From Planctomycetales bacterium (GTDB lineage Bacteria; Planctomycetota; Planctomycetia; Pirellulales; Thermoguttaceae): a stretch of 61,508 nt of DNA. The DNA lies in contig SKOZ01000040.1 in NCBI GenBank assembly GCA_007119795.1, positions 1 through 61,508 on the forward strand. Reading direction: 5' to 3'. The notes below the pieces were generated by a model. That model saw only the letters and a program-made list of their open reading frames with translations, made no database searches and was not told the DNA's origin. Made by a program: the position numbers and the translations under genes. Within the stretch, counting starts at the first letter, position 1. Each line of letters begins with the position of its first letter. Shown here one piece after another: positions 22,313 through 34,105 of this stretch.

Positions 22313-22589
22313 CACTTTCTCCAACTTCTCCTTGCAGTCGATTTCGGTCCCTGGCCGGTCCCGCGGCGCGGCAAGATAAGGGCGCCCCCCGCGGACGATC
22401 GGCGCACCGCCGTGCCTGCCCAGCGGCGGGATCGGCCGGCAGCCTCCAGTGTATCCCAGGTAGATGGCCGAGGGCATCCCGGGTGAACTGCCATTTGCAG
22501 GCGGTCGGAGGGTACAATGGCAGGATCGTGTGCCGGCGGCGGCGCCGCATCGCTCCGTTGCCGTGCTCGGTAAACCGGGAGAAGCCGCC

Positions 22590-23921
22590 GTGAAGAACGA
22601 AGGACTCAATCCGATGAGAACGAGAGGCCGACTTTCCCCCAGCAAGCTCCTCACGATCGTTCTGGCCGTGGTGCTCGGCGCCGGGCGGCCGGCAGCCGCC
22701 GGGCCCGAGGAGGTGGGGGCGGAGGGCGTCGACTATCTGATCGTCGTCACTGGCGGCGAGTTGCTCGCCGGGGCCTACGCGGACGCCCACATTCCCTTCC
22801 TGACGCGCAGCCTCCATCCCCTGGGCTTTCGTTGCCTTGCGGCAGTCATCGTGGAGGACGCGGTGGAAGAAATCCAAGAGGCTGTCGGTGCCGCCCTGGA
22901 GCGGGTTCCGTTGGTGATCGTCACCGGTGGCCTGGGGCCCACCCCCGACGACGTGACCCGCGAGGCCCTCTCCGCGCTGACGGGCGTTCCCCTCCGCGAG
23001 CACCCCGATCTGCTCGCCAAGCTGGAGGAACGCTTTGGCACACCGCGCGACGAGCTCCGCGCCAACCTCCGCCGCCAGACGGAGGTGCCCGTCGACGGCG
23101 GTTTCCTCGCCAACGACCACGGCACCGCCGCGGGCCTCCTTTTCGAGCACGACGCAGGGTTGATCGCGGCCCTCCCCGGACCGCCGCGCGAGCTGCAGCC
23201 GATGGTCCACGATCACCTCGTGCCCCTGCTTACGGAGCGTTTCGGCACGAGCCCCCCCGGTGACGTGTTGACGATCCGTTTCGTCGGCATCGGCGAGTCG
23301 CTCGTCGACCACACCATCAGCGAGCACATCCCGATCCCCGACGGCGTTGCCCAGGCTTCGCTCTTCGAAGGGATGCGCGTCGACTTCTACTTCACCCTTA
23401 CCGGCGCCACGGCGGACGGCCTCGCCGAACTGGACCGGATTCGCGAAGAGGTCCTCCGCCACCTGGGCGAGTACGTCTATGCCACCGACTCCACGACGCT
23501 CGAAGAGCACGTGGTCGATCTCCTGGTTCAAAGGGACAAGACCGTCGCCCTGGCCGAGGTCGGCAGCGGCGGCAGTCTGGCCGCGGCCCTCGGCTCGGCG
23601 GATGCCATTGCCGGTATCCTTGCCGGCGCCTACATAGCTCCCGACAAGGAGCGGTTGTCTCGGATGCTCGCCGACTCCCTGCCTCCGGCCGCTGCCGCTC
23701 CGGACCTGGCCCGGCGGCTGGCGGAGCGGACCGGTGCCGACCTGGCCCTGGCCGTCGGTCCCGCGACCCTGGACGACGGGGGGGGCCGCTCCGTTGAGGT
23801 CGCCTACTTCGCCGATGGCCACACCGCCACCCACCGGCTCGCCCTGCGGGGCACCGGCGAGACGGCGCGCTTCCACCTGACAACCCAGTTCCTCGACCTC
23901 CTGCGCCGCCGCCTCCGGTAG
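22590..23921 (+). CDS. Exported CinA-like protein with degenerate amidohydrolase domain
   Basis: A 443-residue protein with the CinA layout but a signal peptide. GTG 22590 is preferred because GGGAGAAG lies about six bases upstream; ATG 22614 is the alternative. Both give a positive n-region followed by LLTIVLAVVLGAGRPAAA. The N-terminal MoaB/MogA-like domain is well kept: VVTGGELLAGAYADAH, VTGGLGPTPDDVTREAL, NDHGTAAGL, LPGPPRELQPM. In the C-terminal half, where nicotinamide-nucleotide amidohydrolases have AESCTGG, this protein has AEVGSGGSLAAAL, so the amidase site appears lost. Cytoplasmic CinA/PncC recycles NMN; an exported version must do something else. It is upstream of the one-carbon genes but about 180 bases away. 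Confidence 0.75.
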   Translation: MKNEGLNPMRTRGRLSPSKLLTIVLAVVLGAGRPAAAGPEEVGAEGVDYLIVVTGGELLAGAYADAHIPFLTRSLHPLGFRCLAAVIVEDAVEEIQEAVGAALERVPLVIVTGGLGPTPDDVTREALSALTGVPLREHPDLLAKLEERFGTPRDELRANLRRQTEVPVDGGFLANDHGTAAGLLFEHDAGLIAALPGPPRELQPMVHDHLVPLLTERFGTSPPGDVLTIRFVGIGESLVDHTISEHIPIPDGVAQASLFEGMRVDFYFTLTGATADGLAELDRIREEVLRHLGEYVYATDSTTLEEHVVDLLVQRDKTVALAEVGSGGSLAAALGSADAIAGILAGAYIAPDKERLSRMLADSLPPAAAAPDLARRLAERTGADLALAVGPATLDDGGGRSVEVAYFADGHTATHRLALRGTGETARFHLTTQFLDLLRRRLR

Positions 23922-24105: not shown

Positions 24106-24744
24106 ATGTCCGATCCTGCCGAACTGTACGAAGCGATCCTCACCGGCAACGCCAAGAAAGCCACGGAAGTAACCACGGCCGCCCTGGACGCCGGTGTCGA
24201 TCCCTCGCTGCTGCTGAGCAAGTACATGATCCCGGCGATGGATGATGTAGGGAACCGCTTCGAGTGCAACGAGTTTTTCGTGCCCGAACTGCTCATCGCC
24301 GCCCGGGCGATGAAATCGTCGCTGGAGCTGCTCACGCCGCGGCTGGCCGCGGCGGGGGCCAAGTCGGCCGGTCGCGTGGTGATCGGCACCGTCCAGGGAG
24401 ACCTGCACGACATCGGCAAGAACCTCGTCGCCTCGATGCTGGAGGGGGGCGGCTTCGAGGTCATCGACCTGGGCGTCGACGTGGCGCCGGATCAGTTCGT
24501 CGAGGCCGCCGGGGAGAACGAGGGAGCCATCATCGCCCTCTCGGCGCTGCTGACCACCACGATGACCATGATGAAGAAAGTCATCGATGCCCTCGAGGCG
24601 GCCGGCCGCAGATCCCAACACCGGGTCATCGTGGGCGGCGCCCCCATCACCCAGCAGTTTGCCGACCAGATCGGCGCCGACGGCTACAGCGACAACGCCA
24701 GCGGCGCCGTCGCCCTGGCGCGCAAACTCGTGGTAGTCTCCTAG
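24106..24744 (+). CDS. Corrinoid (B12-binding) methyl-carrier protein, MtaC/MtbC type
   Basis: A 212-residue methyl carrier. Residues 1-85 form the helical cap domain (B12-binding_2): LYEAILTGNAKKATEVTTAAL and YMIPAMDDVGNRFECNEFFVPELL. Residues 90-212 are the Rossmann B12-binding domain: GDLHDIGKN with the cobalt-ligating H101, the Ser-x-Leu in ALSALLTT, and VGGAPIT. It would shuttle a methyl group between a pterin methyltransferase and an acceptor enzyme. Start ATG 24106 follows AGGAG by six bases. It heads a group with the MetF-MetV fusion and the methyl-H4folate methyltransferase, with gaps of 163 and 35 bases, which supplies a clear methyl donor route. Confidence 0.9.
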   Translation: MSDPAELYEAILTGNAKKATEVTTAALDAGVDPSLLLSKYMIPAMDDVGNRFECNEFFVPELLIAARAMKSSLELLTPRLAAAGAKSAGRVVIGTVQGDLHDIGKNLVASMLEGGGFEVIDLGVDVAPDQFVEAAGENEGAIIALSALLTTTMTMMKKVIDALEAAGRRSQHRVIVGGAPITQQFADQIGADGYSDNASGAVALARKLVVVS

Positions 24745-24907
24745 GCGGGCCGTTCCCGTCGGTGATGAGAGGCTGTCCTTCCGGCATCGATCGACCCGCA
24801 GCGGGCTGCGTTTCCCGGTACGAAAACCCCGGCGGGCGAAGCAGCAGCCAGTCTGCCGAGGGTGGAACTCGCAAGAACGACGGGCGTCCCCGAGGGGAGC
24901 GACGCAG

Positions 24908-26665
24908 ATGAGTGCGCACAGTGCTGGCGTGGCGTTCCGCGAGCTGCTCGGTTCCGGCGGCTTTGCCTATGGGGCCGAGCTGGTATCCACCCGCGGTCTC
25001 CCCAATCCCGACGCCCCGGGCAGCTGTCTCGGCGCGGCAGGCGAGCTGGCCGGCGACCGGCGGATCGGTTGGCTCTCCATCACCGACAGCCCGGGCGGCA
25101 CCCCCATGCTCCCGCCCGACTATCTCGCCCGACTGCTGATGGATCACCGCCGCCGCGTCGTCCTGCACGTCACCTGCAAGGACATGAACCGCAACGGCTT
25201 GGAGACGACCCTCTGGCGGTACGCCGCGGAGGGCTTCGACAACATTCTGGCGCTCACCGGGGACCTCTCCGGGGAAGGGTTCGGGGGAAGGGCTCCGGGT
25301 GTCTTCGACCTCGACTCCGTGGGGCTGATCGCCCTGGCCCGCGCCATGAACGACGGCCTTGCGGTCCGCGGCCGTCGCGGTGACCCCGAGCGACTGCCCG
25401 GGACGCATTTCTTCACGGGTTGCGTCGTATCCCCCTTCAAGAGGCACGAGCGGGAATTGCTGCCGCAATACTTCAAGCTCCTCCGCAAGCTGGCTGCCGG
25501 TGCCCAATGGGTAATCCCCCAGCTCGGCTACGACATGCGGAAGTTCCACGAAATGATGTCTTTCCTGCGGTGGCGGGGGAGCGACGTCCCGGTGATCGGC
25601 AACGTCTACGTCCTCAACCGCACCGTGGCCGAGCTCTTCCATCAAGGCAGGCTTCCCGGATGCGTGGTCAGCGACGCCCTGATCGAGATGGTCCGCCGCT
25701 ACGCTGCCGGTCCGGACAAGGGACGGGCCTTTTTTCGCGAGCTGGCCGCCAAACAGCTTGCCGTCTTCAAGGGCCTGGGTTGCGCCGGGGGGTATCTGGC
25801 GGGGATCGCCAAGCCGGAGACCTTTTTCGAGATCATCGACCTGGCGGAAGGCTTCGCCCCGCACGACTGGCGGGCTTTCGCGCGCGAGATCCGCTTCGGC
25901 CAGCCGGGCGAGTTCTACCTCTTCGAGGAGGACCCCGCCACCGGTTTGGCCGACCCCCAACGGCTCAATGCCGCGTACCTCCGCGCGCTGGAGCACCCCG
26001 CGAAGAGCGCGGAAGTCGGTCTCAGCTACCGTCTGTCTCGACGGGTCCACGACTGGCTCTTCACCCGCGGCCGCGGCCTGTACGGCCTGGCGCGGAGACT
26101 GTACCGCCGCTGGGAGGAACGGCCCGGGACGCTGAGCCGGCTCGCCTATTCGATGGAGAGGTTCTCCAAGGCCGCCCTCTACGGCTGCCAGGATTGCGGC
26201 GATTGCAGCCTGCCCGACTGCGCCTACCTCTGCCCCATGCGTGCCTGCTCGAAGCACTCGCGAAACGGTCCCTGCGGAGGCTCGCGCGAGGGGCGCTGCG
26301 AACTGGGCGACAAGGAGTGCCTTTGGGCGCGGGCCTACGAGCGGCTCAAGCACTACGGCGAGTCGGAGACGATGCTCGCGGGGCCCCCGGTCCTCTACCG
26401 TGCCGAGCTGCTGCACACTTCTTCGTGGGCCAACACCTACCTCGACCGCGACCACCACGCACCGCCCGGCACGGCTCCCGTCCCTCCCGCCGAACCGCCT
26501 CCGAACGGGCCCCCCTCGGCGGACACCGCAGTCCCACCGCAGGCCGGCCTCGATCTGCCGGCGGGGGGCAAGGCGAAGGCCGACGGACAACCGCCCACCA
26601 CCGGTGGGAACGACGCATTGCGGCCCGGGATTATCGGCCCTCCGGTTTCCAGCAGTCCTCCTTAA
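24908..26665 (+). CDS. Methylenetetrahydrofolate reductase fused to MetV-type C-terminal domain
   Basis: A 585-residue fusion. Residues 20-330 are the MetF barrel that reduces methylene- to methyl-tetrahydrofolate (FAYGAELVSTRG, SITDSPGG, LHVTCKDMNRN, ILALTGD, PQLGYD). Residues 415-480 match the MTHFR C-terminal domain found separately as MetV in acetogens. Nine cysteines lie at 427, 430, 433, 438, 442, 447, 456, 464 and 471 in CQDCGDC, DCAYLCPMRAC and NGPCGG contexts, suited to zinc and/or an iron-sulfur cluster. The last 85 residues are a Pro/Gly-rich tail. In acetogens MetV links MetF to electron carriers. The fusion plus its downstream methyltransferase suggests methyl-H4folate is made for a corrinoid, not for a standard MetH. 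Confidence 0.88.
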   Translation: MSAHSAGVAFRELLGSGGFAYGAELVSTRGLPNPDAPGSCLGAAGELAGDRRIGWLSITDSPGGTPMLPPDYLARLLMDHRRRVVLHVTCKDMNRNGLETTLWRYAAEGFDNILALTGDLSGEGFGGRAPGVFDLDSVGLIALARAMNDGLAVRGRRGDPERLPGTHFFTGCVVSPFKRHERELLPQYFKLLRKLAAGAQWVIPQLGYDMRKFHEMMSFLRWRGSDVPVIGNVYVLNRTVAELFHQGRLPGCVVSDALIEMVRRYAAGPDKGRAFFRELAAKQLAVFKGLGCAGGYLAGIAKPETFFEIIDLAEGFAPHDWRAFAREIRFGQPGEFYLFEEDPATGLADPQRLNAAYLRALEHPAKSAEVGLSYRLSRRVHDWLFTRGRGLYGLARRLYRRWEERPGTLSRLAYSMERFSKAALYGCQDCGDCSLPDCAYLCPMRACSKHSRNGPCGGSREGRCELGDKECLWARAYERLKHYGESETMLAGPPVLYRAELLHTSSWANTYLDRDHHAPPGTAPVPPAEPPPNGPPSADTAVPPQAGLDLPAGGKAKADGQPPTTGGNDALRPGIIGPPVSSSPP

Positions 26666-26700
26666 CTATCATTATCTCCCGCAGAAAGGAAACGCCGCGG

Positions 26701-27564
26701 ATGGCGATTGAAGGTCTCTGCATCATCGGCGAATCGATCAACGACTCGGTTCCCTCGACGAAACAGCTCTTCGACGCGGGCGACGTCGAAGGCATCCTCG
26801 ATCTGGCACGCAGCCAAGACGAGGGGGGGGCGGCCTACATCGACGTCAACGTCGGCTCCCGCCCGCCTGAATTCATGGCCGATCTGGTCCGCCGCATCCA
26901 GGGGGTGACCGCCAGACCCCTTTCGATCGACACCCCCGACGCCGAGTTGGCCCGCGCTGGCCTGTCGGCCTACGATCCGCAGCGGGCGGGCGGCAAAAAG
27001 CCGATCCTCAACTCCATTTCCCCCTTGCGGCCGGGAATGTTCGCGCTCCATGCCGTGCAGCCGTTCCGTCCCATTCTGCTGATCTCCGAGCGGGTTGAGG
27101 ACGGCCACTCGCGGCCCTGCCACACCGCCGAGGAGACGGTTCAGGCGGCTCGCGACCTTGTGGGTCTGGCCCGGCAGGCGGGCATCGCCAACGCCGACCT
27201 GATCCTCGATCCGGGCCTCGCTCCGATCGGGAGCGATACCGAGGGGAACCTCAAGCGGCTGCTGACGGCCATGGAGATGCTCCACAACGACGGCGACTTC
27301 GCCGGCTGCCATTTTTCGGTGGGCCTGAGCAACTTCACGATGATGCTCCCGGCCAAGCGTGCCGACGGTTCACGCGTGAAGGGCCCCCTGGAGAGCGCCT
27401 TCCTCACCCGCGCCATGCCCCTGGGGCTCGACACGGTCATCGGTTCGGTGAAGCGGAAGTACGAGATCCTCGCCGACGACCATCCCGCCGTGCAGTGTCT
27501 GGAACAGGTGCTGGCCGCCGACGGCTTCGAGGCCCTCATGCATGTCCGCAGTTTCTACGCCTAG
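26701..27564 (+). CDS. Methyl-tetrahydrofolate:corrinoid methyltransferase
   Basis: A 287-residue TIM barrel of the pterin-binding family, the same fold as the pterin domain of MetH and acetogen AcsE. Marks are IIGESINDS at the start, ARSQDEGGAAYIDVNVGS, PLSIDTPD, KPILNSISP, LILDPGLAPIGSD and FSVGLSNFTMMLP. It transfers the methyl of methyl-H4folate to the Co(I) corrinoid of a partner, here most likely the 24106 protein. It starts 35 bases after the MetF-MetV gene with AAAGGA upstream, so the two are co-transcribed. The window contains no homocysteine-binding domain, no CO dehydrogenase/acetyl-CoA synthase and no corrinoid reductive activase. Confidence 0.88.
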   Translation: MAIEGLCIIGESINDSVPSTKQLFDAGDVEGILDLARSQDEGGAAYIDVNVGSRPPEFMADLVRRIQGVTARPLSIDTPDAELARAGLSAYDPQRAGGKKPILNSISPLRPGMFALHAVQPFRPILLISERVEDGHSRPCHTAEETVQAARDLVGLARQAGIANADLILDPGLAPIGSDTEGNLKRLLTAMEMLHNDGDFAGCHFSVGLSNFTMMLPAKRADGSRVKGPLESAFLTRAMPLGLDTVIGSVKRKYEILADDHPAVQCLEQVLAADGFEALMHVRSFYA

Positions 27565-27689: not shown

Positions 27690-28538
27690 ATGAAGCGTCG
27701 TGAGATGCTCAAGGCGACCGGCTTGGCCATTGCCGGCGCCGCTTTGCCGATGCGCTGGGCCGCCGCTGCGGGGCGGCAGCGTGAGAAGGTCCTCTACTTC
27801 ACCCGCAGTGCCGGCTTCGAGCACTCCGTGGTGGCGCGGCCGGAAGGCCAGCTCAGCCACTCGGAGAAGATCCTCGTCGAACTGGGCGATCAGCATGGCG
27901 TCGACGTGGTCTGCACCAAGGACGGCACCGTCTTCGACGGCGACCTCGACCAGTACTCCGCGATTGCCTTCTACACCTCCGGGAACCTTCTCGGTCCCTC
28001 GCAGGACGGCGGCGAGCCGATGACCGAGCGGGGTAAGCAGCGTCTGCTCGACTGGGTGTCCGCGGGAGGCGGCTTCGTCGGCATCCACGCGGCCACCGAC
28101 ACCTTCCGCAGCGCCGGCGTCGATCCCTACGTCGCCATGATCGGCGGTGAGTTCAGCGGGCACGGCCCCCAGCAGGTGGCCACGAATTACAACGTCTCCC
28201 CGCAGTTCCCCGGCATGGAGGAAGTAGGCGAATCGTTCGAGCTCCTCGAGGAGTGGTATGCCTTCCGCAAGCTCGCCGAAGACATGCACGTGATCCTCGT
28301 CCTGGAGACGGAAGGTATGGAGGGCGGCGATTACCAGCGTCCCCCCTTCCCGTCAGCCTGGGCGCGCCGCCACGGCGACGGCCGCGTCTACTACAACTCC
28401 CTCGGCCATCGGGAAGACGTGTGGACCAATCCCCTCTTCCAGAACATGCTCATCGGCGGTTTCAGTTGGGCGATGGGCCACGTGGAATTCGACCCGGTGC
28501 CCAATTTCGCCGAGGTGACACCCGAGGGCAATATCTGA
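27690..28538 (+). CDS. Tat-exported ThuA-like protein
   Basis: A 282-residue protein of the ThuA (trehalose utilisation) family, a class I glutaminase-like fold very common in planctomycetes. The N-terminus MKRREMLKATGLAIAGAALP is a twin-arginine type signal. The fold is marked by KVLYFTRSAGFEHS, FTSGNL-like YTSGNLLG, GGGFVGIHAATDTF, GGEFSGHGPQQ, and late GDGRVYYNSLGHREDVW. ThuA-like domains are linked to sugar metabolism in rhizobia, but no enzymatic activity is established for this clade. Start ATG 27690 follows GGAGACGAG. The ComB gene begins 9 bases after its stop. Confidence 0.85.
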   Translation: MKRREMLKATGLAIAGAALPMRWAAAAGRQREKVLYFTRSAGFEHSVVARPEGQLSHSEKILVELGDQHGVDVVCTKDGTVFDGDLDQYSAIAFYTSGNLLGPSQDGGEPMTERGKQRLLDWVSAGGGFVGIHAATDTFRSAGVDPYVAMIGGEFSGHGPQQVATNYNVSPQFPGMEEVGESFELLEEWYAFRKLAEDMHVILVLETEGMEGGDYQRPPFPSAWARRHGDGRVYYNSLGHREDVWTNPLFQNMLIGGFSWAMGHVEFDPVPNFAEVTPEGNI

Positions 28539-28547
28539 ACGCCGCCT

Positions 28548-29336
28548 ATGCGCCCCGAGTTGAACGTCTACGCCCTGCCTTCCCTCGTCGACTCCGCCGA
28601 ACTGGCGGAGACTGCGGCAGTGGTGATCGACGTGCTCCGCGCCTCGACGACGCTCATCGCGGCGCTGGAGGCCGGGGCCAAGGAAATCGCGCCCTGCGGG
28701 GAGATCGACGAGGCCCGCCGTCTGGCCGCCGATCTCCCCGCGGGCGAAGCGATTCTGGGCGGCGAGCGAAACGGCCGCGCCGTGGACGGATTCGATCTGG
28801 GGAACTCCCCCCATGAATACACGTCCGCCGCAGTCGGCGGCCGGACGGTGGTCTACACCACCACGAACGGCACGAGGGCTCTGCTGCGGTGCCAGGCGGC
28901 AGCTGAGGTGCTCGTGGCGGGGTTCGTCAACGTCTCCGCCGTCTGCCGGCGGCTGACGGGCCGGGAACGGATCGCCATCGTCTGTGCGGGCACGAATGGG
29001 GAAATCAGCGAAGACGACGTACTCCTCGCCGGCCTCATGGTGGAACGCCTCCATCGCCAGGGGGGAATGACCCACCGGCTCAATGCCCAGGCGTTGACGG
29101 CTCGGGAGACGTGGCTGGCAGCCTTTGCACTCCCGATCACACTGGGGAGCGAACCGCTCCCCCCCGCGCGACTGGCAGCGGAACTGCGGACCAGTCGGGG
29201 GGGGCGCGGCCTCGTTCCCCTCGGCTTGGACGACGACATCCTTGCCGCCGCCCATGTCGACTGCTATCGGCTCGTCCCCCTTCTCGATCCGCGGACGCTC
29301 CGCCTCCGACCTGCCGTGGAGTCCCGCCCGAGCTGA
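28548..29336 (+). CDS. comB: 2-phosphosulfolactate phosphatase family (ComB)
   Basis: A 262-residue Mg-dependent phosphatase-family protein. Conserved blocks are VVIDVLRASTTLIAAL, ILGGERNGRAVDGFDLGNSP, VVYTTTNGTRAL and IVCAGTNGEISEDD. In methanogens ComB makes sulfolactate for coenzyme M; in bacteria the same protein is widespread without ComA or ComC and its substrate is less certain (sulfolactate or related phosphoester). No sulfonate genes are visible nearby. Start ATG 28548 lies 9 bases after the ThuA stop, so it is probably in that transcript. Confidence 0.88.
   Translation: MRPELNVYALPSLVDSAELAETAAVVIDVLRASTTLIAALEAGAKEIAPCGEIDEARRLAADLPAGEAILGGERNGRAVDGFDLGNSPHEYTSAAVGGRTVVYTTTNGTRALLRCQAAAEVLVAGFVNVSAVCRRLTGRERIAIVCAGTNGEISEDDVLLAGLMVERLHRQGGMTHRLNAQALTARETWLAAFALPITLGSEPLPPARLAAELRTSRGGRGLVPLGLDDDILAAAHVDCYRLVPLLDPRTLRLRPAVESRPS

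Positions 29337-33049: not shown

Positions 33050-34105
<1,056 letters not shown>

Follow-up and report, generated by a model that had tools for sequence, protein, structure and literature searches.

The closest described systems are MtgBCDE of Ruegeria pomeroyi and the split methionine synthase of Phaeobacter inhibens, in which the corrinoid carrier (MtgC) and the pterin-binding methyltransferase (MtgD) are separate proteins; in the portions of the two reports used here, MtgD is encoded beside a MetF paralog, and the system includes a separate homocysteine (Hcy) subunit and RamA-like and DUF1638 activators (PMC12478193, PMC5764234). According to the same portions, MtgC and MtgD are required in Ruegeria for methionine synthesis as well as betaine use (PMC12478193), while the three-part MetH of Phaeobacter works with the RamA-like and DUF1638 proteins, and some genomes carry both a RamA-like protein and a MetH with the standard activation domain (PMC5764234).

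The same parts list, in the order carrier, DUF1638, MetV, MetF, methyltransferase (MT) and ASKHA activase, is found on pAZKH of Azoarcus KH32C and on plasmid IV of Paracoccus aminovorans, and a partial set occurs on pSymB of Sinorhizobium meliloti, where the stretch ends inside MetF. MttB lies near the Paracoccus and Sinorhizobium kits, and betaine transport genes and PurU near the Azoarcus kit. Corrinoid O-demethylases (MT1, carrier, MT2 and activating enzyme) share the carrier and MT2 families with the locus described here, and the acetogen set of MetF/MetV and AcsE shares the MetF and MetV domains and the pterin MT.

Gene content of the locus

The stretch of DNA analyzed (61.5 kb, hereafter the window) contains three open reading frames whose families, already named in an earlier sequence-only reading, are borne out by profile matches and conserved residues (Table 1). 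Gene starts are uncertain, as a codon-usage caller favors 24929 for MetF-MetV and 26701 for MT.

Table 1. Genes of the three-gene module, with window coordinates and Pfam matches.
Gene product	Coordinates	Strand	Length (aa)	Pfam matches
Corrinoid (cobalamin) carrier, MttC/MtgC-like	24106..24744	+	212	PF02607, PF02310
MetF-MetV fusion	24908..26665	+	585	PF02219 (57 bits), PF12225 (82 bits)
Methyl-H4folate:corrinoid methyltransferase (MT/MT2; pterin-binding)	about 26716..27564	+	282	PF00809 (63 bits)

The carrier scores 202 bits with TIGR02370 (cut-off 215) and 206 and 182 bits with the MtgC models, both also lower than their cut-offs, and its best solved-structure match is 1y80 (E 3.7e-59). H101 in GDLHDIGKN is invariant in the 11 aligned proteins, as are the DxHxxGK, SALLTTTM and GGAP motifs.

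In the fusion, a methylene-H4folate reductase (MTHFR) domain with the catalytic acidic residues (about residues 56–269) is joined to a cysteine-rich MetV domain (about 412–489), the combination that defines a MetF-MetV methylene-H4folate reductase. E24 and D119, which we take to be the counterparts of E. coli Glu28 and Asp120, are invariant in 19 aligned rows together with several cysteines. In the predicted structure, the N-terminal part has an MTHFR-like fold (match to 8eac, E 6e-11, TMt 0.81); the model has a mean pLDDT of 67, and its MetV part (low confidence) and C-terminal tail are unusable. Of 7998 candidates scored, 2961 are homologs of the fusion; this number, and the recurrence of the gene order in relatives, exclude chance as the origin of the three-gene set.

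The MT scores 101 bits with PRK07535 (cut-off 259). Its D72, N99, D165 and N206, presumably the counterparts of the pterin-site Asp/Asn/Asp/Asn of AcsE, do not vary across 15 aligned MTs, a set that includes two AcsE-like and two proteobacterial sequences. The top profile match among solved structures is 4o0q, with AcsE structures next, and in a phylogenetic tree the window MT falls in a clade of its own, apart from proteobacterial MTs and from AcsE-like MTs (100/100 branch, to be read with caution for long branches).

A stand-alone carrier and a stand-alone pterin-binding MT are thus both present, as in the Phaeobacter-type split cobalamin methionine synthase. Unlike in MtgBCDE and the Phaeobacter system, MetF and MetV form a single fused protein, FTHFS is clustered with the module in many relatives, the relatives' methyl donors look mostly URO-D-type, and the phylum is different. 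The carrier is 40–43% identical to those of the Azoarcus, Paracoccus and Sinorhizobium kits, and the MT 25–29% identical to those of Azoarcus and Paracoccus; in all three kits MetF and MetV are separate genes, and the Azoarcus and Paracoccus clusters include an ASKHA activase that the window lacks. Likeness to O-demethylases extends to the solved matches of the carrier (1y80, 4jgi) and the MT (4o0q), which we take to be of O-demethylase or acetogen origin, but the window has neither MT1 nor an activating enzyme.

Partners absent from the window

A six-frame search of the 61.5 kb with eight kit profiles found nothing beyond the three genes, and a Pfam scan of the 43 predicted window genes (E <= 1e-5 in most scans) detected no PF02574, PF02965, PF01717, PF14574, PF06253, PF01208 or PF01268. 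Neither search thus detected an acceptor, activase, methyl-donor enzyme (URO-D/MttB) or FTHFS in the window, or a single-chain MetH combining Hcy, pterin, B12 and activation domains. The sequence-only reading had likewise reported no local homocysteine, SAM-reactivation or RACo part.

It had also reported no CODH/ACS nearby; no CODH/ACS family is present among the 43 genes, and no CFeSP or CODH/ACS adjoins the module. This bears on a possible role as the methyl branch, complete or degraded, of the Wood-Ljungdahl pathway, of which MetV and FTHFS are typical. The MetV domain, the clustering of FTHFS in relatives, and a report of planctomycete MAGs from seagrass sediment as Wood-Ljungdahl carbon fixers (PMC11929135, in the portion used here) would fit such a role. 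In two planctomycete MAGs (L022, L037), moreover, a paralogous AcsE-like-MetFV-FTHFS set has as its neighbors RACo and two proteins labeled by eye, an ATPase resembling CooC and one resembling AcsD. The same two genomes, however, hold a second, carrier-type module resembling the window's (L027, L025), the window carrier is MtaC/MttC-like, and the window MT does not group with AcsE; together with the missing CFeSP and ACS genes, this makes a Wood-Ljungdahl role very unlikely.

Gene neighborhoods in relatives

Neighborhoods were compared for the best 80 of 339 relatives on contig pieces of about 3–22 kb, and since many pieces are cut at contig ends the counts are lower bounds. Among these 80 loci, MT lies within 3 kb of the module in at least 54, FTHFS in at least 49 and the carrier in at least 29; a homocysteine S-methyltransferase is found in the flanks of at least 21, within 3 kb in at least eight. 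The order carrier, MetFV, MT, Hcy occurs in four loci (L015, L016, L021, L051; Pfam-checked in L015 and L021), and in L051, a 6-kb contig, MttB, carrier, MetFV, MT and homocysteine methyltransferase are contiguous. URO-D homologs were found in at least 16 of the 80, including weak or partial matches (E up to 1e-6; 14 with a 60-bit floor), and 12 of the 16 are Verrucomicrobiota.

Opitutae islands (L102, L103) bring together MT or FTHFS, an Hcy-MTHFR fusion, an Hcy protein, several URO-Ds, carrier and RACo, with DUF1638 also present in L102. The Hcy-MTHFR fusion was seen in all seven loci fetched to view it; it could offer another route to methionine, which counts against the hub reading given below. 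A formate transporter was considered for an MFS protein of one Opitutae island and rejected, as the L-lactate MFS model (310 bits) outscored the oxalate/formate models (182 and 149), all below cut-off. The classic O-demethylase motif E-X14-E-X20-H, which we take to be that of OdmB/VdmB, occurs in only two of the 48 URO-D matches of the fetched loci, weak and partial ones included.

The sequence-only reading had suggested a methionine synthase of the core-MetE (MesA-D) type as a possible recipient of the carrier's methyl group. In L022 a protein with a PF01717 match (33 bits) comes after FTHFS, which points that way, but L022 is an acetyl-CoA-synthase-type cluster rather than a carrier-type module, and the recurrent neighbors of the module are PF02574 proteins; we find this acceptor hardly credible.

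Partner genes elsewhere in the genomes

Partner genes were sought in the 45 distinct genomes that contain 47 of the 80 loci; most genomes surveyed are MAGs. A RACo-type activase (PF14574) is encoded in 43 of the 45 (vs. 1 of 14 controls) and a PF02574 homocysteine S-methyltransferase in 44, a count that includes domains of MetH and of fusions; both usually do not adjoin the module, though sometimes they do. MttB (PF06253) is present in 22, in 21 of them over cut-off. The activase is thus not truly missing in relatives, and these genomes lend no support to the proposal of an acceptor and an activase belonging to some unnamed kind. The partners missing from the window look like a gap in gene linkage, and the acceptor and activase of its own module would be of the kinds seen in its relatives.

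In an even sample of the class (118 genomes), PF12225 was found in only four, once not fused, so the module is not a general planctomycete trait. We also surveyed 97 genomes of one planctomycete family, that of the source (G001) of the first-ranked locus (L001), counting matches >470 bits as fused modules; MT matches found only in MetH-like frames (G166, G173, G196, G207) were dropped, and three weak PF02965 matches (G180, G196, G207) were not scored as full MetH. MT and RACo are retained or lost together across the family: both are present in 76 genomes, neither in 11 and one only in 10 (Fisher p 1.4e-7, kinship ignored). Such co-retention, like the family assignments, conserved residues and recurrent neighbors, is a pattern that sequence data support. 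RACo occurs in 36 of the 39 fused-module genomes and, nearly as often, in 45 of the 58 others; it therefore has no specific tie to the module and appears to be a general activase.

Full MetH is encoded in 20 of the 97 genomes, 18 of which also have MT. Of the 39 genomes that carry the fused module, 13 encode it as well (vs. 7 of the 58 others), and the idea that the module replaces MetH, raised in the sequence-only reading, was rejected. MT is present in 33 of the 46 genomes without MetV, and its surroundings in 17 of these contain no kit neighbor except FTHFS in one; MetF-MetV is therefore not needed for the core job of MT. In MetV-less genomes, none of the 20 regions retrieved around RACo or Hcy-MTHFR genes showed a carrier.

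Proposed function

We propose, with a probability of roughly 55%, that the module forms the folate/corrinoid core of a split cobalamin methionine synthase and that this system serves a second purpose, as a hub for the methyl groups of URO-D or MttB donors; split methionine synthase and demethylation, both suggested from the sequence alone, do fit as candidate roles. MetF-MetV would interconvert methylene-H4folate and methyl-H4folate, and MT would shuttle the methyl group between methyl-H4folate and the carrier's Co(I). From the methylated carrier it would go to homocysteine on a PF02574 protein encoded apart, and an ATP-dependent RACo-type protein, also encoded apart, would re-reduce the carrier once oxidized. 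In many relatives, URO-D- or MttB-type methyltransferases may deliver methyl groups through the same carrier and MT to H4folate. The reactions, the direction of flow, homocysteine as the main acceptor and the presence of the missing parts in the window's own genome are what we infer from the comparisons above. Besides the Hcy-MTHFR fusion, points that count against the proposal are the absence of every partner from the window, the occurrence of MT in MetV-less genomes, the spread of RACo beyond the fused module, and the presence of full MetH in some genomes alongside that module.

Methionine may instead not be the module's job. As a catabolic demethylase core, it would take methyl groups from URO-D or MttB enzymes encoded elsewhere via carrier and MT to H4folate, for oxidation by MetF-MetV and release by FTHFS as formate with ATP. 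MttB is found in 21 of the 51 family genomes that have MetV, whether fused or as a gene of its own, and in none of the 46 without, and URO-D copies number 9–37 (median 19) in 10 module genomes vs. 0–14 (median 1.5) in 10 MetV-less genomes (Mann-Whitney p 4e-4; genomes hand-picked, kinship ignored). The FTHFS linkage, the contiguous MttB-carrier-MetFV-MT genes of L051, and the proteobacterial kits with MttB or with PurU and betaine transporter genes also fit, as does 4o0q, which we take to be the methyltransferase component of an O-demethylase. We nevertheless consider a purely catabolic core possible but rather unlikely: the window lacks URO-D, MttB and FTHFS, URO-D occurs in few of the best 80 loci and there mostly in Verrucomicrobiota, FTHFS is absent from nine of the 39 fused-module genomes, and linkage to homocysteine methyltransferase would be superfluous for catabolism. 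The larger URO-D families and the FTHFS linkage, taken by themselves, argue equally for catabolism.

Returning to the split methionine synthase and methyl hub, the module is probably a lineage-specific version of a known enzyme kit that makes methionine and takes in the methyl groups of other compounds. A bolder, speculative and unlikely extension is a single hub in Planctomycetota and Verrucomicrobiota that would serve methionine synthesis and also oxidize methyl groups from dozens of URO-D-type donors to formate by way of fused MetF-MetV, with ATP gained in the FTHFS step; this would be an unrecognized formate-forming methylotrophy without CODH/ACS. Among the papers listed in literature searches, which covered part of the matches, neither titles nor abstracts describe the methionine/demethylation hub in either phylum, and in the main texts of two of the closest papers no word starts with planctomyc or verrucomicrob.

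If the proposal is correct, a hub that has to date been demonstrated in marine Proteobacteria extends to uncultured planctomycetes and verrucomicrobia, in a form that has diverged in its own MT clade, its fused reductase and the FTHFS in its cluster, and many unassigned URO-D homologs would gain a use as methyl donors to a shared carrier. Within the planctomycete family surveyed, 74 genomes show no MetH signal; MT and RACo occur together in 58 of them, and for these the proposal would suggest a route to methionine.

The module as a probable shared methyl-transfer core

Our preferred reading makes the module a shared folate/corrinoid core, belonging to a split methionine synthase that can accept methyl groups from other donors too. 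Such a core would serve both methionine synthesis and the uptake of methyl groups from those donors, and either use may dominate in this organism. The sequence-only reading had described three genes without a visible acceptor, activase or Wood-Ljungdahl enzymes (CODH/ACS). In a six-frame search of the window (67% G+C) with profiles for the MetF-MetV fusion, the methyl-H4folate:corrinoid methyltransferase (MT), the carrier, the ATP-dependent activase RACo, FTHFS, homocysteine (Hcy) methyltransferase, DUF1638 and URO-D, only the three module genes matched, so that observation holds, local absences included. It is likewise borne out by Pfam, which gave no homocysteine, MetH-activation, MetE, RACo, MttB, URO-D, FTHFS or CODH/ACS family among all 43 predicted window genes. 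One gene of this bacterial window encodes a deoxyhypusine-synthase-like protein.

Positions of the module genes and selected other genes in the window
Feature	Position	Strand	Remark
CinA-like gene	22464-23921		flanks module, carrier side
Corrinoid carrier	24106-24744	+	module
MetF-MetV fusion	24908-26665	+	module
Pterin-binding methyltransferase (MT)	about 26716-27564	+	module
ThuA-domain gene	27690-28538		flanks module, MT side
PF04029 gene (2-phosphosulfolactate phosphatase family)	28548-29336		immediately past the ThuA-domain gene
Deoxyhypusine-synthase-like protein	33050-34105		PF01916, 125 bits

The carrier motifs DxHDIGK, SALLTTTM and GGAP are conserved in 11 of 11 aligned rows, as are Glu24 and Asp119 of MetF in 19 of 19; MTHFR structures match a predicted model of the fusion's N-terminal part. 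All 15 aligned MTs, two AcsE-like and two proteobacterial ones among them, retain Asp72, Asn99, Asp165 and Asn206, which we take to correspond to the methyl-H4folate site of AcsE. A profile alignment pairing MT with a solved methyltetrahydrofolate corrinoid/iron-sulfur protein methyltransferase supports this match. A 100/100 branch of the MT tree separates planctomycete and verrucomicrobial MTs, including that of the window (55 rows), from AcsE-like, MetH-like and proteobacterial MTs; the deeper order is unreliable given long branches, and the placement of the very long L063_115 within the window group is unsure. Identity to the window MT is 54–73% in its own group (L063_115 left out) vs. 25–34% for the others.

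Distribution of the fusion

Homologues of the fusion made up 2961 of 7998 scored candidates, and those with organism names among the 120 matches listed belong to Thermoguttaceae, Thermogutta, Pirellulales and Planctomycetota. When species genomes were scanned, 339 relatives emerged, the best 80 of which formed our locus set; these are dominated by Planctomycetota and Verrucomicrobiota, joined by one MAG each from Acidobacteria and Desulfobulbaceae and by a record labelled just "bacterium". The trait is patchily distributed: MetV (PF12225) occurs in 4 of 118 genomes from the class of G003, a relative's genome, and within the family of G001 (source of the first-ranked locus) 39 of 97 genomes encode the fused protein and a further 12 a separate MetV. 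Planctomycetaceae MAG loci L069-L072, L075, L076 and L078-L080 carry a diverged fusion (51–54% identity) on contigs that lack both MT and FTHFS; a termite-gut origin of these MAGs is a guess from isolate names. The fusion of genome G234 (G234:C8) is similarly diverged, yet fusion, FTHFS and MT adjoin one another.

Gene neighborhoods and genomic partners

Judged from relatives, the partners' absence near the module appears mainly to reflect gene linkage. Because contig ends cut loci, neighbor counts over the best 80 of 339 are lower bounds: within 3 kb of the fusion, at least 54 loci have MT, 49 FTHFS, 29 a carrier, 8 an Hcy methyltransferase and 6 RACo, rising at any distance to at least 31 for the carrier and 21 for Hcy methyltransferase. 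URO-D homologues occur in 16 of the 80, weak and partial matches counted. Sampled neighbor identities were upheld by Pfam. The order carrier-fusion-MT-Hcy recurs in L015, L016, L021 and L051; since L051, a 6003-base contig, begins with an MttB gene, MttB, carrier, fusion, MT and Hcy are consecutive there (L093 represents the first 3071 bases of that contig in reverse). In Opitutae loci L102 and L103, a single island holds MT or FTHFS, an Hcy-MTHFR fusion, an Hcy protein, several URO-Ds, a carrier and RACo, with DUF1638 also present in L102. The RACo of L102 (14258-15889) has middle and ASKHA domains only, with no 2Fe-2S ferredoxin domain by Pfam at E <= 1e-5.

In two planctomycete MAGs, an AcsE-like-MetFV-FTHFS set lies within an acetyl-CoA-synthase-type cluster (L022:3826-14549, L037:747-8981) that includes RACo, a CooC-like ATPase and an AcsD-like protein, the latter pair identified by eye. 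A core-MetE-like gene (PF01717) is also present in L022, and both genomes have a second, carrier-type module (L027, L025).

Genome complements were counted in 45 module genomes, reached via 47 of the 80 loci: 44 have PF02574 (Hcy), 43 PF14574 (RACo), 28 PF02965 (MetH activation) and 22 PF06253 (MttB; 21 above cut-off). RACo either adjoins a CooC-like ATPase and an AcsD-like protein (both named by eye) or, without these, lies near a LysR-type gene (by eye) in several planctomycetes and near Hcy, DUF1638 or a carrier in several other genomes.

Across the 97 genomes of the G001 family, MT was found in 81, RACo in 81, FTHFS in 66, the fused module in 39, MttB in 21 and full MetH in 20. With kinship ignored, MT and RACo co-occur in 76, stand singly in 5 each and are both missing from 11 (p = 1.4e-7); 74 genomes lack any MetH signal, and 62 of them have MT, 58 both MT and RACo. 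Genomes with and without the fused module, compared again regardless of kinship, gave identical counts for RACo and MT (36/39 vs. 45/58; p = 0.09 for RACo), 30/39 vs. 36/58 for FTHFS (p = 0.18) and 13/39 vs. 7/58 for full MetH (p = 0.02, toward coexistence). MttB occurs in 21 of 51 genomes with any MetV vs. 0 of 46 without (kinship ignored).

Counting against a split synthase or hub, MT is present in 33 of the 46 MetV-less genomes. Of 20 MT regions examined, 17 in genomes lacking MetV and 3 in module genomes, none had a kit neighbor except FTHFS in two, one per group. Taken together, these results give MT a core role independent of MetF-MetV; methionine synthesis is a candidate that would fit, but no carrier turned up in 20 RACo or Hcy-MTHFR regions of MetV-less genomes. 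In genomes G196 and G207, stand-alone MT and RACo are both missing; a MetH-like pterin domain lies in a 740–814 aa frame and the activation domain in a separate 232–241 aa frame of the same contig (G196:C60, G207:C213).

URO-D copy numbers (true HemE counted) fit one carrier fed by many methyl donors: 24, 37, 23, 28, 20, 9, 11, 12, 18 and 15 in ten module genomes vs. 5, 2, 3, 1, 2, 0, 1, 1, 1 and 14 in ten without MetV (p = 4e-4, both sets being non-independent and of our choosing).

Comparison with known systems

Similar gene sets are found on Azoarcus KH32C pAZKH (carrier, DUF1638, a small gene, MetV, MetF, MT and ASKHA, accompanied by purU and genes for betaine transport), on Paracoccus aminovorans plasmid IV (MttB, carrier, DUF1638, MetV, MetF, MT, ASKHA) and on S. 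meliloti pSymB (MttB, carrier, DUF1638, a formyl transferase, MetV and MetF, inside which the examined stretch ends). Published work describes, for Ruegeria, loss of both methionine synthesis and betaine growth in mtgC and mtgD mutants and an increase of MetF2 on methylated osmolytes (PMC12478193); for Phaeobacter, a three-part MetH plus RamA-like and DUF1638 proteins (PMC5764234); and for anaerobes, Mlp clusters of the URO-D type that include a carrier and a Ram/RACE protein (PMC10418091).
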